Program-made: the position numbers and the translations under genes
Shown here: one piece after another, positions 36,146 through 39,960 of the stretch
How the letters are laid out: the number at the start of each line of letters is the position of its first letter
Position numbering within the stretch: position 1 is the first letter of the stretch
Source of the DNA: Bacteroidales bacterium
Lineage (GTDB): Bacteria > Bacteroidota > Bacteroidia > Bacteroidales > Marinilabiliaceae
Length of the DNA stretch: 62,899 nucleotides
Assembly: GCA_024401355.1 (NCBI GenBank)
Contig: JAKSLF010000016.1
Span: forward strand, 1-62,899
Direction: 5' to 3'
Notes under the pieces: model-generated
Seen by the model: the letters and a program-made list of their open reading frames with translations, nothing else
What the model was told of the DNA's origin: nothing
The model's database searches: none

Positions 36146-37015
36146 TTAGTCTTCATGGCTTTGTCTGCCATTTTCATATTCTCCAAGTACAAGAAGCTGT
36201 GAGCAGAGTGGTCTGACAGCGCTTAAAGCCTGTATGTATCTTGTGTAGTTGTTGAACGAAAGGTCTACATAAAAGAGGTATTCCCATTCGTGTCCTACGA
36301 CAGGGTTGGACTGAATCTTTGAAAGATTTACACCATAGAAAGCAAGTATTGTAAGGACTTTCGATAGGCTTCCGACTTCTTTTGCTTGTGGGAGAGAGAA
36401 AACGATAGAGGACCTGTTTATTCTATTTTGTGCCAGGAGTTCGTCGATTTCGGTACGTCCCTTGTCGCTTACCACGAGGAAACGAGTGAAGTTTTTCTTA
36501 TTTGTTTCGATACCCTTGTGAAGTATTTCGAGTCCGTAGAGTTCGGCAGCCAATTCTGGTGCTATAGCTCCGACGTGTCGAAGTCCCTTTTCGGCAACAT
36601 CTTTGGCAGAGAGTGCGGTATCGTCGCTTTCTATGAGTCGGATGTTAGGGTAGTTACGGAAGAAAGCTTCGCACTGACGGAGAGCCATTGGATGAGAGCG
36701 GACTTCTGTGAGGTCTTCCATTTTTACGCCTGGCATAACCATAAGATTGTGCTTTATCCTAAGTTTGTATTCTCCGATGACCTCGAGACCGGAATCTTTA
36801 AGTAGGGTATAGTTGGACTGTATTGAACCTACTAGTGTATTCTCTATTGCGACAATTCCGTAGAGAGAACGGTCTTGTCTCACTCTGTCGAAAAGTTCCT
36901 GGAAAGTATAGCAAGGAACTACCTCAACATCATAGCCTTCAAAAAATTCTCTTGCAGCAATCTCATGATTTGCTCCAGCGACACCCTGGATGGCAACTCT
37001 TTTAATTTCTTTCAT
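36146..37015 (-). CDS. pheA: Prephenate dehydratase
   Basis: A 289-residue enzyme converting prephenate to phenylpyruvate. The dehydratase domain (about 1-190) has VAIQGVAGANHEIAA, IVAIENTLVGSI, the catalytic TRF motif in NFTRFLVVSDK, and SHPMALRQC. A C-terminal ACT domain follows (GSLSKVLTILAFYGVNLSKI), in which the usual Phe-binding ESRP reads QSNP, so feedback binding may be altered. No chorismate mutase domain is present; that activity is fused to DAHP synthase two genes downstream. First structural gene after the Phe/Tyr attenuator. Confidence 0.94.
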   Translation of the reverse strand: MKEIKRVAIQGVAGANHEIAAREFFEGYDVEVVPCYTFQELFDRVRQDRSLYGIVAIENTLVGSIQSNYTLLKDSGLEVIGEYKLRIKHNLMVMPGVKMEDLTEVRSHPMALRQCEAFFRNYPNIRLIESDDTALSAKDVAEKGLRHVGAIAPELAAELYGLEILHKGIETNKKNFTRFLVVSDKGRTEIDELLAQNRINRSSIVFSLPQAKEVGSLSKVLTILAFYGVNLSKIQSNPVVGHEWEYLFYVDLSFNNYTRYIQALSAVRPLCSQLLVLGEYENGRQSHED

Positions 37016-37045
37016 CTTGTCCTACTTACTTATATCCATATAAAT

Positions 37046-37076
37046 CAAAAACCCACCTTGTTCGGGTGGGCTTTTG
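37046..37076 (-). terminator. Attenuator terminator upstream of pheA
   Basis: A 12-bp stem on the minus strand (CAAAAGCCCACC with GGTGGGTTTTTG, one G-U), loop CGAACAA, T5 at its end. It lies 30 bp before the pheA start and 22 bp after the leader-peptide stop. Its 5' arm (CCCACCC) can instead pair with GGGTGGG at 37108-37114 in the leader reading frame, giving the antiterminator. Confidence 0.85.
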
Positions 37077-37098
37077 ACTATGTATTATATCTTAATTA

Positions 37099-37176
37099 TT
37101 AGCAACACCCACCCATTTCTTGGCGATAACCAAAAAAGTAAAAGTAAAATCCGATATAAAATCGTGTGTTGCGCAT
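37099..37176 (-). CDS. Phe/Tyr-rich leader peptide of the aromatic operon attenuator
   Basis: A 25-codon ORF that starts with ATG about 34 bp after a -7 promoter element and ends 83 bp before pheA. Codons 6-17 read FYIGFYFYFFGY, so nine of twelve are Phe or Tyr. The last codons (GGT GGG TGT TGC) contain the GGGTGGG segment that can pair with the 5' arm of the downstream terminator. A ribosome stalled at Phe/Tyr codons would leave that segment free, form the antiterminator and allow pheA transcription. Composition, spacing and competing pairings fit classical attenuation; function is inferred. Confidence 0.85.
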   Translation of the reverse strand: MRNTRFYIGFYFYFFGYRQEMGGCC

Positions 37177-37209
37177 AATGTTTTTTATATTTTTGTTTTA
37201 TTTACTGCG

Positions 37210-37217
37210 CAAAGTTA
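37210..37217 (-). promoter_or_regulatory. Promoter -7 element of the aromatic operon leader
   Basis: On the minus strand TAACTTTG matches the Bacteroidota -7 consensus, placing the transcript start near 37204 and the leader peptide ATG about 28 nt further. No strong -33 element is seen. Confidence 0.6.
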
Positions 37218-37329
37218 CAAAAACAATCTTTACGTTGTTCAGTAAAACGCAATAAAGTTTGAAAAAATATATTTAGTGTTGAATATATAACTCTTTGTAT
37301 TTTGAATGTTTAACTTCTAATGTTCTAGG

Positions 37330-39960
37330 CTAGAAGTCGCCTCCCATAGAGCCTCCATTCTGTCCACCGTCGTCATCGCCGCCTTGTTCCATTGGGCCTT
37401 CAGGCTTCTTTTTGTTGTTGTTCATGTTGCCGAAGCTCCATGCGATTTGAATCATGCCTCGGCGGCCGCCTCTCCATGACTCGCTGTCCTGTCTGAAACC
37501 TACGCCACTGGTTTCGCTTCTGAACTTACGTGATGCGAGAAGGTCTCGTCCATTGACAGCAACGGTGAGTTTCTTGTTGAAGAACGTCTTTCTCATACCC
37601 ATGTCGAGGTTGTAGTTGGCCTTGCGTTTACCCTGGGTGATTACTCTTGCTGCGTTGTAGTTGAAAGTGGTCTGGAAAGATATTTCCTTTGGAAGCATTA
37701 CAGAAGCCAGTACTTTTGCGTTCCATGAGAAGTCGTCGTCGCTATTGACAACGATTGGGTAAGTCTTGCCATCTGAAAGCTTGTAGTCGAAAGTTCCGCC
37801 ATCGAGCTTATAATAATAGAAGTTGATGGTTGATGTGAGGTCCAACCTTGTAAACAAACGGTTTTTTACGATAATTTCCAGACCAGAATTGAGATCCTTG
37901 GCCATATTCTCGGTAGTAGAGTATCGAATGCCATTGTCTATGTAGCTGATGCGCTGCATGATGTTGGTTGACGGACGATAGTATGCCGAGAGTGAAAGAG
38001 TATGATTGTCCCAAGTTTTGATATAGTTGAACTCGAGCGAATTGCTATAAGTTGGTGTCAACTCTGGATTACCATACGAGATGTTTGTTGAGTCGGAGAT
38101 GTTTTTGAATGAATTGAGCTGTCCGCCCCATGGACGACGCAAACGTCGAGTGTAGTTGAGCTGCAATTCCTGGCTTTCGCTAATGTGATAGCTGAGGTAA
38201 GCAGTAGGGAACATCTTGAAGAAACTCTTTTTGAAAGTCTCTGATTCTCCGCCTTTGAATTCGGCAGCGTAGTCTTTACTTTCTGCATCGACATTCCATC
38301 CTTCGCCTCTCAGACCTAGCTGATAGCCGAACGCTTCGTTGATCTTTTGCTGCCAGTTGAGGTAGACGGCATGGATGTTAGAATCGTATATGAAGCGATT
38401 GTATAGGCTTTCGTTGATTGCGAGGTTATGTGTGTCAATAGATTGTACTCCATCCTGTGGGTTGAAAGACGTAGCTGGTGGGTTGAAAGTCTTAGTTGGT
38501 GAGTTCTGGTGTGAGAAATCGCCCTTATATCCAGCCTCGATTTTGATGTCGTCAGTTATTGGCTGCTGATAGTCGAGCTGTACTTCCCAGTCCTTGTGCT
38601 TGTTGTCCATTTCCTGCTTCTGGTATGAAATAACGTCCTGGTCTGTTATGTTGACCAATTCTTGTTGGTTGAAAACAGGTGTGTAGTGTGAAGTCTGAAG
38701 GTATTCGGTTTCTCCATCCATATTGAAAATGCCTCTTGAAATAGTCAAGTCAATATCATGTCCAGTCTTCCATTCGTGACGGTATCCGAAATTGAAATTG
38801 ATCATTCGCATATCGTTGTCGCTGTTGTTGTCTCTTCGGCGGTCCATGCGGTATCCGAGAGTGCTGTATCCGGGATAGTCGGCACTTTCATATTTATATT
38901 CTTGTTTGTTTTCTCCACCGCCATTCATGCTCATGAAGCCCAATGTGAGGTCGTCATGCATAGTGATGTGCCAAGTCAAACCTGCACGGCCGAAGATGTT
39001 GAGACCTTCGTTTTTGCCTTTGTTTGTTGAATTCAGATAAGAAAGTGGAGTGCCGAATGGTGCAATTGAGCTGTTTTCTGTAGCCTGAAGGTTGTCACGG
39101 TCTGTAAATCCGCCACTTTTCATCTTTCGTCTGCCGACACCGATGTTGCCGTATGCATCGATGATGCCGCTTGAGAAATTGATATTGGCACCGATTCTGA
39201 AACCTTTGTTTGTGTTGGCGTTAGCCTGAATGCCACCATAATAACCTGCTTTGCGGTCGCGTTTGAGTACGATGTTTATGATACCGGCAGAACCTTCGGC
39301 AGAATATTTTGACGAAGGATTACTGATGACCTCGATGTGGTCTATGCTTTCGGCAGGCAGCTGCTGAAGGATGTCGCCTCGGTTGTCGCTTGTCATGCCT
39401 TGAGCCTTACCATTTATCCATATTGTTACAGATGACGAGCCGCGCAAAGATATATTACCTTCGGCATCAACCTCGACAGATGGAATGTTTTCGAGCACTT
39501 CGCTAGCCGAGCCACCAACAGAAGCAATGTCCTGGTCGACGTTGAACACCTTCTTGTCTATGTCGAGTTTCATAGTCTGCTTCTGTGCAACAACAGCGAC
39601 CTCTTCGAGCTGTTCGGAGTCTTCCTCGAGTACGATTTTGAGTTTTGCCTTATGTTGGTTCTGGCTGCTAAGAACGACGGTGCGAGATACAGGGCGGTAT
39701 CCCATCATTTGTATCTTAAGTTGAAAAGTTCCGTCGTTGACTCCAGGAATAGTGAAGTCGCCATTTATGTCACTGATGGTTCCCTTGACCATTGTCGTCC
39801 CGTCCTGCTGGTAAAGGATGACGTTGACAAATTCCATAGGATTGCCTGCTGCGTCATTGATTTTACCTTCTATAGATCCTGCCATTGCAAGTGTTGTCGT
39901 CACTAGAAGTGAGAGCATGATTGAGAGGCGTCGAAAAGCCTGTGACATTTTGTTTTTCAT
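37330..39960 (-). CDS. Outer-membrane beta-barrel receptor of the TonB-dependent class (OMP_b-brl_3 type)
   Basis: An 876-residue outer-membrane protein with a signal peptide (SIMLSLLVTTTLAMAGS). It has an N-terminal CarboxypepD_reg-like domain (IEGKINDAAGNPMEFVNVIL), a plug domain (about 120-230: GGSASEVLENIPSVEVDAEG, SSVTIWINGK, DHIEVISNPSSKYSAEGSAG), then a large C-terminal barrel. The C terminus is Gly/Asp-rich. No SusD partner is adjacent, so the ligand is unknown. The frame extends upstream to a TTG, but a promoter at 40012-40019 and the signal peptide favour ATG 39960. Confidence 0.88.
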   Translation of the reverse strand: MKNKMSQAFRRLSIMLSLLVTTTLAMAGSIEGKINDAAGNPMEFVNVILYQQDGTTMVKGTISDINGDFTIPGVNDGTFQLKIQMMGYRPVSRTVVLSSQNQHKAKLKIVLEEDSEQLEEVAVVAQKQTMKLDIDKKVFNVDQDIASVGGSASEVLENIPSVEVDAEGNISLRGSSSVTIWINGKAQGMTSDNRGDILQQLPAESIDHIEVISNPSSKYSAEGSAGIINIVLKRDRKAGYYGGIQANANTNKGFRIGANINFSSGIIDAYGNIGVGRRKMKSGGFTDRDNLQATENSSIAPFGTPLSYLNSTNKGKNEGLNIFGRAGLTWHITMHDDLTLGFMSMNGGGENKQEYKYESADYPGYSTLGYRMDRRRDNNSDNDMRMINFNFGYRHEWKTGHDIDLTISRGIFNMDGETEYLQTSHYTPVFNQQELVNITDQDVISYQKQEMDNKHKDWEVQLDYQQPITDDIKIEAGYKGDFSHQNSPTKTFNPPATSFNPQDGVQSIDTHNLAINESLYNRFIYDSNIHAVYLNWQQKINEAFGYQLGLRGEGWNVDAESKDYAAEFKGGESETFKKSFFKMFPTAYLSYHISESQELQLNYTRRLRRPWGGQLNSFKNISDSTNISYGNPELTPTYSNSLEFNYIKTWDNHTLSLSAYYRPSTNIMQRISYIDNGIRYSTTENMAKDLNSGLEIIVKNRLFTRLDLTSTINFYYYKLDGGTFDYKLSDGKTYPIVVNSDDDFSWNAKVLASVMLPKEISFQTTFNYNAARVITQGKRKANYNLDMGMRKTFFNKKLTVAVNGRDLLASRKFRSETSGVGFRQDSESWRGGRRGMIQIAWSFGNMNNNKKKPEGPMEQGGDDDGGQNGGSMGGDF

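Follow-up and report, generated by a model that had tools for sequence, protein, structure and literature searches.

Attenuation of transcription through a translated leader peptide is a textbook mechanism. In enterobacteria, the pheA attenuator (Phe_leader) consists of a leader peptide with Phe codons, followed by an antiterminator and a terminator before pheA; the leader of E. coli pheA contains Phe codons and is not known to contain Tyr codons. The Bacteroid-trp motif, likewise, is a leader with Trp codons. A published table gives it as an RNA of Bacteroidetes with a probable cis-regulatory role (RF01692; PMC2864571). The authors of a 2010 study stated that, to their knowledge, their own case from Firmicutes was the first such leader-peptide system to be shown in a group other than Proteobacteria and Actinobacteria (PMC2965389). 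Short open reading frames (ORFs) reminiscent of leader peptides were reported in Bacteroides thetaiotaomicron (PMC7366714), and structured 5′ elements were described before pheA and hisG of Flavobacterium psychrophilum and other Flavobacteriaceae, where the pheA element is conserved (PMC9723704). The latter work presents strong clues for leader-peptide attenuation before amino-acid operons, and the elements it names, that of pheA included, had no Rfam hits. The element analysed here belongs to the same phylum and precedes the same gene as the flavobacterial one; in contrast, leader codons, dual sensing of Phe and Tyr, tandem modules and occurrence in Bacteroidales are not described in the available part of that account (PMC9723704). 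The kind of element is long known, and its flavobacterial occurrence is partly in print already. For a mixed Phe/Tyr leader, its spread through Bacteroidales, a fixed spacing and a tandem form, we found no description in the literature searched, which mostly did not extend to subscription journals. A comparative study of 2010 by Lopatovskaya et al. may cover Bacteroidetes.

We analysed a stretch of 62,899 nucleotides from a Bacteroidales bacterium (hereafter, the window), in which four genes for aromatic amino-acid synthesis, headed by pheA, are preceded by a set of short sequence elements on the minus strand (Table 1). We consider it very probable that these elements form a ribosome-mediated transcription attenuator, which reads charged tRNA-Phe and tRNA-Tyr before pheA. 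An initial annotation, made from the window alone, had proposed that the operon feeds both Phe and Tyr; the four gene products, as identified by Pfam, indeed match the codons of the leader. The gene order is shared with relatives: an aminotransferase gene follows pheA on the same strand in 140 of 163 pheA loci, and a DAHP synthase/chorismate mutase gene does so in 122 (the loci counted have 1300 nt or more of downstream sequence, which is too short for the dehydrogenase, and a genome may appear twice).

Table 1. Features of the pheA leader region and operon in the window, in order of transcription.
Feature	Sequence	Position	Strand	Basis or remark
Promoter -7 box	TAACTTTG	37217-37210	minus	Bacteroidota consensus TAnnTTTG; read from sequence
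Leader peptide ORF	MRNTRFYIGFYFYFFGYRQEMGGCC	37176-37099	minus	25 codons and TAA; read from sequence
Possible region 1	GCAACAC	37172-37166	minus	Complementary to 37108-37102; weakly supported
Phe/Tyr core	FYIGFYFYFFGY	37161-37126	minus	Leader codons 6-17, Phe/Tyr at 9 of 12; predicted stall sites
Region 2, antiterminator 5′ arm	GGGTGGGT	37114-37107	minus	Within last leader codons; folds of RNA cut before terminator 3′ arm, and covariation
Intrinsic terminator hairpin, region 3 with region 4		37079-37043	minus	Folds and covariation
Region 3	GCCCACCC	37071-37064	minus	Common to antiterminator and terminator; folds and covariation
pheA, prephenate dehydratase, first structural gene		37015-36146	minus	Pfam PDT, E 8.7e-56
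Class I/II aminotransferase, operon gene 2		36124-34955	minus	Pfam Aminotran_1_2, E 2.2e-59
DAHP synthase fused to chorismate mutase, operon gene 3		34924-33830	minus	Pfam DAHP_synth_1 and CM_2
Prephenate dehydrogenase (tyrA), operon gene 4		33752-32976	minus	Pfam PDH_N, E 1.6e-08

The 25-codon ORF with its run of aromatic codons at positions 6-17 was read directly from the sequence and proved to be as annotated, in coordinates as well as in content. Such a run is not expected by chance. When the 430 nt preceding pheA were dinucleotide-shuffled 3000 times, no shuffle contained a short ATG-initiated ORF with at least nine Phe/Tyr codons in 12 (the number observed), and 20 contained one with at least six. 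A search of the genome with a six-codon pattern returned a mismatch-free match at the window leader only, which gives no support to a second Phe/Tyr leader in the same genome. Five further places match with one mismatch; two of them fall in short open frames (of 22 and 20 aa), the other three in longer frames.

Ahead of the leader, the initial annotation had placed a promoter, and a box of the Bacteroidota type is present there, from which we infer promoter use. A sigma-70 scan of positions 36900-37400 found no promoter site. This blank is uninformative, because the scan applies a sigma-70 model while the host phylum uses another box, the flavobacterial -7 box being TAnnTTTG (PMC9723704). Past the Phe/Tyr core, leader codons 21-23 contain the segment GGGTGGG (37114-37108, minus strand), which is complementary to CCCACCC at the 5′ side of the terminator. 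Both the sequence and the folds of truncated RNA confirm this segment, which had been proposed as the antiterminator. Promoter, leader, antiterminator and terminator thus follow one another on the minus strand in the order needed for attenuation, in agreement with the initial reading.

The arms of the terminator (37076-37065 and 37057-37046) pair over 12 bp, or up to 15 bp depending on the fold, with a GC core of CCCACC/GGTGGG; the second half of this core is region 4 (37057-37052, minus strand), and it is followed by a U-run at 37051-37047, which is short in the window (UUUUUGAUUU). A 12-bp terminator with CCCACCC as its 5′ arm had been annotated, and the hairpin was found; the last C of that motif, however, sits in the terminator loop and pairs in the antiterminator instead. 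The whole leader RNA (37205-37046) folds with -39.1 kcal/mol, as good as none of 200 shuffles (z -4.1), into the 12-bp terminator and a hairpin that pairs GCAACAC (codons 2-4) with the end of the leader. The terminator alone was likewise matched by none of 200 shuffles (z -6.6). When the RNA was cut before the 3′ arm of the terminator, it folded into the GGGUGGG/CCCACCC antiterminator, both when the upstream part of the leader was included (37060-37205) and when it was left out (37060-37125). With the 3′ arm included (37040-37125), the terminator won at equilibrium even with region 2 free, indicating that the choice must be kinetic, made during transcription. Computation of the alternative folds of this region, which had been suggested as a check, returned both the terminator and the antiterminator state.

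These parts suggest the following mechanism. RNA polymerase would start just past TAACTTTG, and a ribosome would trail it through the 25-codon leader. Upon scarcity of Phe or Tyr, the ribosome would stall in codons 6-17, its front remaining short of GGGTGGG; the freed GGGTGGG would pair with CCCACCC once the latter is made (2:3 pairing), which would allow read-through into pheA and the other Phe/Tyr genes. When both amino acids are plentiful, the ribosome would reach the stop codon and cover GGGTGGG, so that CCCACC would pair with GGTGGG (3:4 pairing), and the hairpin with its U-run would terminate transcription. As a stall at either kind of codon would suffice, the leader is expected to behave as an OR gate that responds to scarcity of Phe or of Tyr.

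To describe the distribution of the element, we scored as a leader at least six Phe/Tyr in 12 codons after an ATG, GTG or TTG start. A PheA match was present in 65 of the 71 genomes of the window's family, one of which (G015) was skipped, as a mere 12 nt separate the end of its contig from the match. The order set comprises 66 upstream regions, one just 15 nt long, from 107 non-family genomes with a match; the named set comprises 80 loci minus six that repeat genomes of other sets, with two further near-identical pairs kept; and the phylum set comprises the best-scoring 29 loci of 127 other genomes of the phylum with a match, these 29 standing outside the 204 regions of the other sets. Leaders were found in 62 of 64 upstream regions of the family set, 61 of 66 of the order set, 61 of 74 of the named set and 27 of 29 of the phylum set (211 of 233 in total). 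Leader and terminator together were found in 60 of 64, 60 of 66, 61 of 74 and 27 of 29, respectively (208 of 233); the chance rates given below apply to the leader alone. All these sequences are related, and the counts are not independent events. Judged by named loci with identical upstream sequence, the family takes in a Marinilabiliaceae MAG as well as Carboxylicivirga; among named relatives, a Bacteroidales MAG is nearest, with 81% PheA identity. Named carriers include Phocaeicola vulgatus (ATCC 8482, a cultured commensal), Bacteroides fragilis, Bacteroides xylanisolvens and a Prevotella sp., and two of the 27 wider-phylum carriers (L214 and L236) lie outside the class. Leaders with a GTG start occur at L127, L088, L128 and L153.

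The leader was below threshold in 22 of the 233 regions. Contig ends truncate the two family regions without a leader (to 101 and 84 nt), in which a terminator-like hairpin is still visible by eye. Some of the leaderless regions are short (L008, L021, L124, L170 with 156 nt and L181 with 229 nt), and the leader of L092, with five Phe/Tyr, is just under the threshold. At five loci (L160, L175, L180, L201 and L210), pheA has no Phe/Tyr leader at threshold, and the upstream DNA resembles, by eye, the end of another gene, which suggests that these are moved or differently controlled copies of Bacteroidota pheA.

The aromatic run stands out from background in relatives as it does in the window. With ATG starts only, at least six Phe/Tyr in 12 codons were found in 179 of 204 real regions as compared with 12 of 204 reverse complements and 65 of 2030 shuffles; for at least seven, the numbers were 177, 1 and 11, respectively. 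Of the 204, the 151 that combine a leader with a terminator under a strict definition form a set of their own (20 regions without a leader, and 33 with a leader and no hairpin passing the strict rule, were left out). In this set, 147 leaders contain at least two Phe and at least two Tyr, and TAnnTTTG lies no more than 110 nt ahead of the leader start in 124, as against 10 of 151 after one shuffle of each region. Codons 1-18 of the leader are free of gaps in an alignment of 16 sequences. In codons 6-17 of these sequences there are 57 departures from the majority codon, of which 25 are synonymous, 14 exchange Phe and Tyr, 15 lose the aromatic residue and 3 are of other kinds; outside the core, leader residues differ widely among relatives. 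The leader looks to be kept as a counter of Phe and Tyr, in which either residue is often acceptable. Such interchangeability fits an operon that makes both amino acids.

Covariation was analysed in the same 16 sequences (alignment A2), with 500 shuffles per test. For the antiterminator (2:3), 96.1% of cells were paired and 17 cells were changed on both sides, each value being reached by none of the 500 shuffles, and pairing fell to 29-45% when the arms were slid by one to three columns. Two of the five covariation measures were not above shuffles: pairs with a double-sided change (3 versus a shuffled mean of 2.7) and further pair types (6 versus 6.8). For the terminator (3:4), 90.5% of cells were paired and 12 cells were changed on both sides (reached by none of 500 shuffles), and five pairs were changed on both sides (reached by 14 of 500); further pair types (9 versus a shuffled mean of 9.4) were the sole measure not above shuffles. 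Exchange of arms between sequences points the same way. Native 2:3 pairing had a mean of -16.7 kcal/mol, as opposed to -10.8 kcal/mol with arms from other families, and the swapped mean was weaker than the native value in 148 of 151 cases; distinct region-3 cores of at least 6 nt numbered 93. Within the window's family, native 2:3 pairing beat the genus-swapped mean in just 45 of 57 cases, probably because the stems there are alike. The initial annotation had named leader codons and pairings that are not kept in relatives as grounds for rejecting the attenuator; what we found, as far as sequence can tell, is that the aromatic codons and both pairings are conserved with compensatory changes, in the family and beyond.

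A 1:2 hairpin of the E. coli type, which acts as pause or protector hairpin in trp and phe, was also considered. It paired in 61.6% of cells versus a shuffled mean of 56.1% (reached by 9 of 500 shuffles) in the 16 sequences, and native arms did better in the swap test in 112 of 151 cases overall and 46 of 57 in the family. Its covariation score (0.256), however, is matched by a three-column slide (0.250), and the hairpin was not upheld as a conserved element; its presence before pheA is weakly supported.

A ribosome covers about 10 nt downstream of its A-site codon. Region 2 starts 10.4 nt (s.d. 3.0) past the point where the core has its last Phe/Tyr codon. Measured from the stop codon, in contrast, its position drifts (s.d. 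12.4); the start of region 2 lies beyond the stop codon in 13 of 92 groups. We also folded the leaders with a model ribosome, whose footprint was assumed to extend 12 nt from the first A-site base and which leaves only the downstream RNA to fold. In the 151 leaders, relative 2:3 pairing was 0.91 for stalls in the core versus 0.18 at the stop codon, and the switch fell at a median of two codons past the last Phe/Tyr codon. Once the model ribosome stood at the stop codon, less than half of the 2:3 pairing was left in 141 of 151 leaders, and 10 kept at least half.

Rfam holds a T-box family as well as models of leader-peptide attenuators. At gathering score, no Rfam family was found in the window, in eight pheA loci of relatives or in three other leader loci of the same genome (see below), and no NCBIfam model matches the leader peptide; annotation based on these two libraries would therefore miss the element. 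A permissive Rfam search at the element gave ten sub-threshold matches up to E 5, including Thr_leader (29.7 bits), Phe_leader (27 bits), Trp_leader (18.1 bits) and unrelated families. A T-box riboswitch was discarded as a candidate, given that none was detected in the window at gathering score or at the element among these ten matches. The Phe_leader model (RF01859) aligns over the whole window element (E 0.016), though its gathering score, 55 bits, is far higher than the score obtained. Unlike Phe_leader, the window leader mixes Phe and Tyr and is without a well-supported 1:2 hairpin, and it comes from another phylum with another promoter type. Bacteroid-trp (RF01692) differs in that it concerns trp rather than phe/tyr, and it has no gathering-score match in the window or in the trpE locus of the same genome.

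The structured and conserved 5′ region with its alternative stems would also be expected if the RNA hairpins sensed directly, as a riboswitch or by T-box-like binding of tRNA, with the ORF being incidental. We regard this as highly improbable, since no Rfam family reaches gathering score in the window, the reading frame is kept with 39 of the 57 codon departures being synonymous or Phe/Tyr exchanges, and region 2 holds its distance to the Phe/Tyr codons.

Alternatively, the terminator could end the upstream gene or make a short RNA, and the ORF could encode either a small protein with a function of its own or a leader peptide that acts in trans, of which peTrpL is an example (PMC7298713). A same-strand gene, with a weak match to SusC/RagA outer-membrane proteins, does lie upstream of the leader; a promoter box nevertheless separates the two, the residues outside the Phe/Tyr core vary widely among relatives, and the 2:3 pairing covaries, which a simple terminator would not need. 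The chance that either version is correct is, in our estimate, very small. An equally slim chance goes to the proposal that translation of the leader controls translation of pheA or stability of its mRNA, rather than transcription. Leader genes may work by reinitiation (PMC4833913), but the pheA start is 83 nt away from the leader stop, and a hairpin and then a T-run follow the leader in 208 of 233 upstream regions.

The attenuators of Salmonella mgtCBR respond to signals other than Phe and Tyr. They are arranged in tandem, with two short leader ORFs in one transcript leader (PMC3641672). A comparable arrangement, before different genes, is seen in 14 of 233 upstream regions (440-451 nt upstream of pheA), where two Phe/Tyr leader-plus-terminator modules lie in series (L067, L068, L070, L072, L082, L095, L098, L104, L111, L125, L130, L132, L199 and L213); the window element has one module only. 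The tandem loci span nine numbered families and one named locus (L199, Phaeodactylibacter). At L068, no second promoter box was seen by eye between the two modules. In six of the tandem loci (L067, L068, L070, L072, L082 and L095, from families f54, f80, f86 and f71), the core of the second leader ends in Tyr-Phe-Met, and this shared end suggests an old duplication.

We lean, by a little, towards the view that the dual Phe/Tyr attenuator is an ancestral, phylum-wide control of aromatic amino-acid synthesis in Bacteroidota, which keeps about 10 nt, the reach of a ribosome front, between codons and antiterminator, reports the scarcer of the two charged tRNAs and has duplicated into two complete modules in several families. 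If so, termination steps would be multiplied by modules in series, making the response sharper. It would also be strong evidence that the ribosomes of Bacteroidota follow RNA polymerase closely enough for attenuation, because translation in this phylum mostly starts without Shine-Dalgarno sequences. Such starts have been reported for F. psychrophilum (PMC9723704). The element would provide a concrete, testable case of coupled translation-transcription control in a phylum that has its own promoter type and includes gut bacteria, among them the carriers P. vulgatus, B. fragilis and B. xylanisolvens; the mixed Phe/Tyr leader would serve as a natural OR gate, and its tandem versions as natural variants bearing on the value of a second attenuator.

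Leader ORFs of the same layout, with other codons, were observed elsewhere in the genome of the window. Before hisG (L242, contig C5), a His-rich leader, MNNLHQHHHHHTDD, starts at locus position 1200 and is followed by a terminator-like hairpin, making this a likely candidate for a his attenuator. Before trpE (L243, contig C5), the leader MIQMNSNWWWWRLTSNKPE starts at locus position 1299 and has four consecutive Trp codons, with a hairpin and a T-run after it; it is likely to be a candidate trp attenuator. Before ilvD (L244, contig C1), the leader MMTRLFNIQVLHVVVVLLVVMP, rich in Leu and Val, starts at locus position 1222 and is accompanied by a terminator-like hairpin, which makes a branched-chain attenuator candidate likely. 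By eye, all three leaders are preceded by a TTTG-type box and have a hairpin that ends at a T-rich stretch or close to one.
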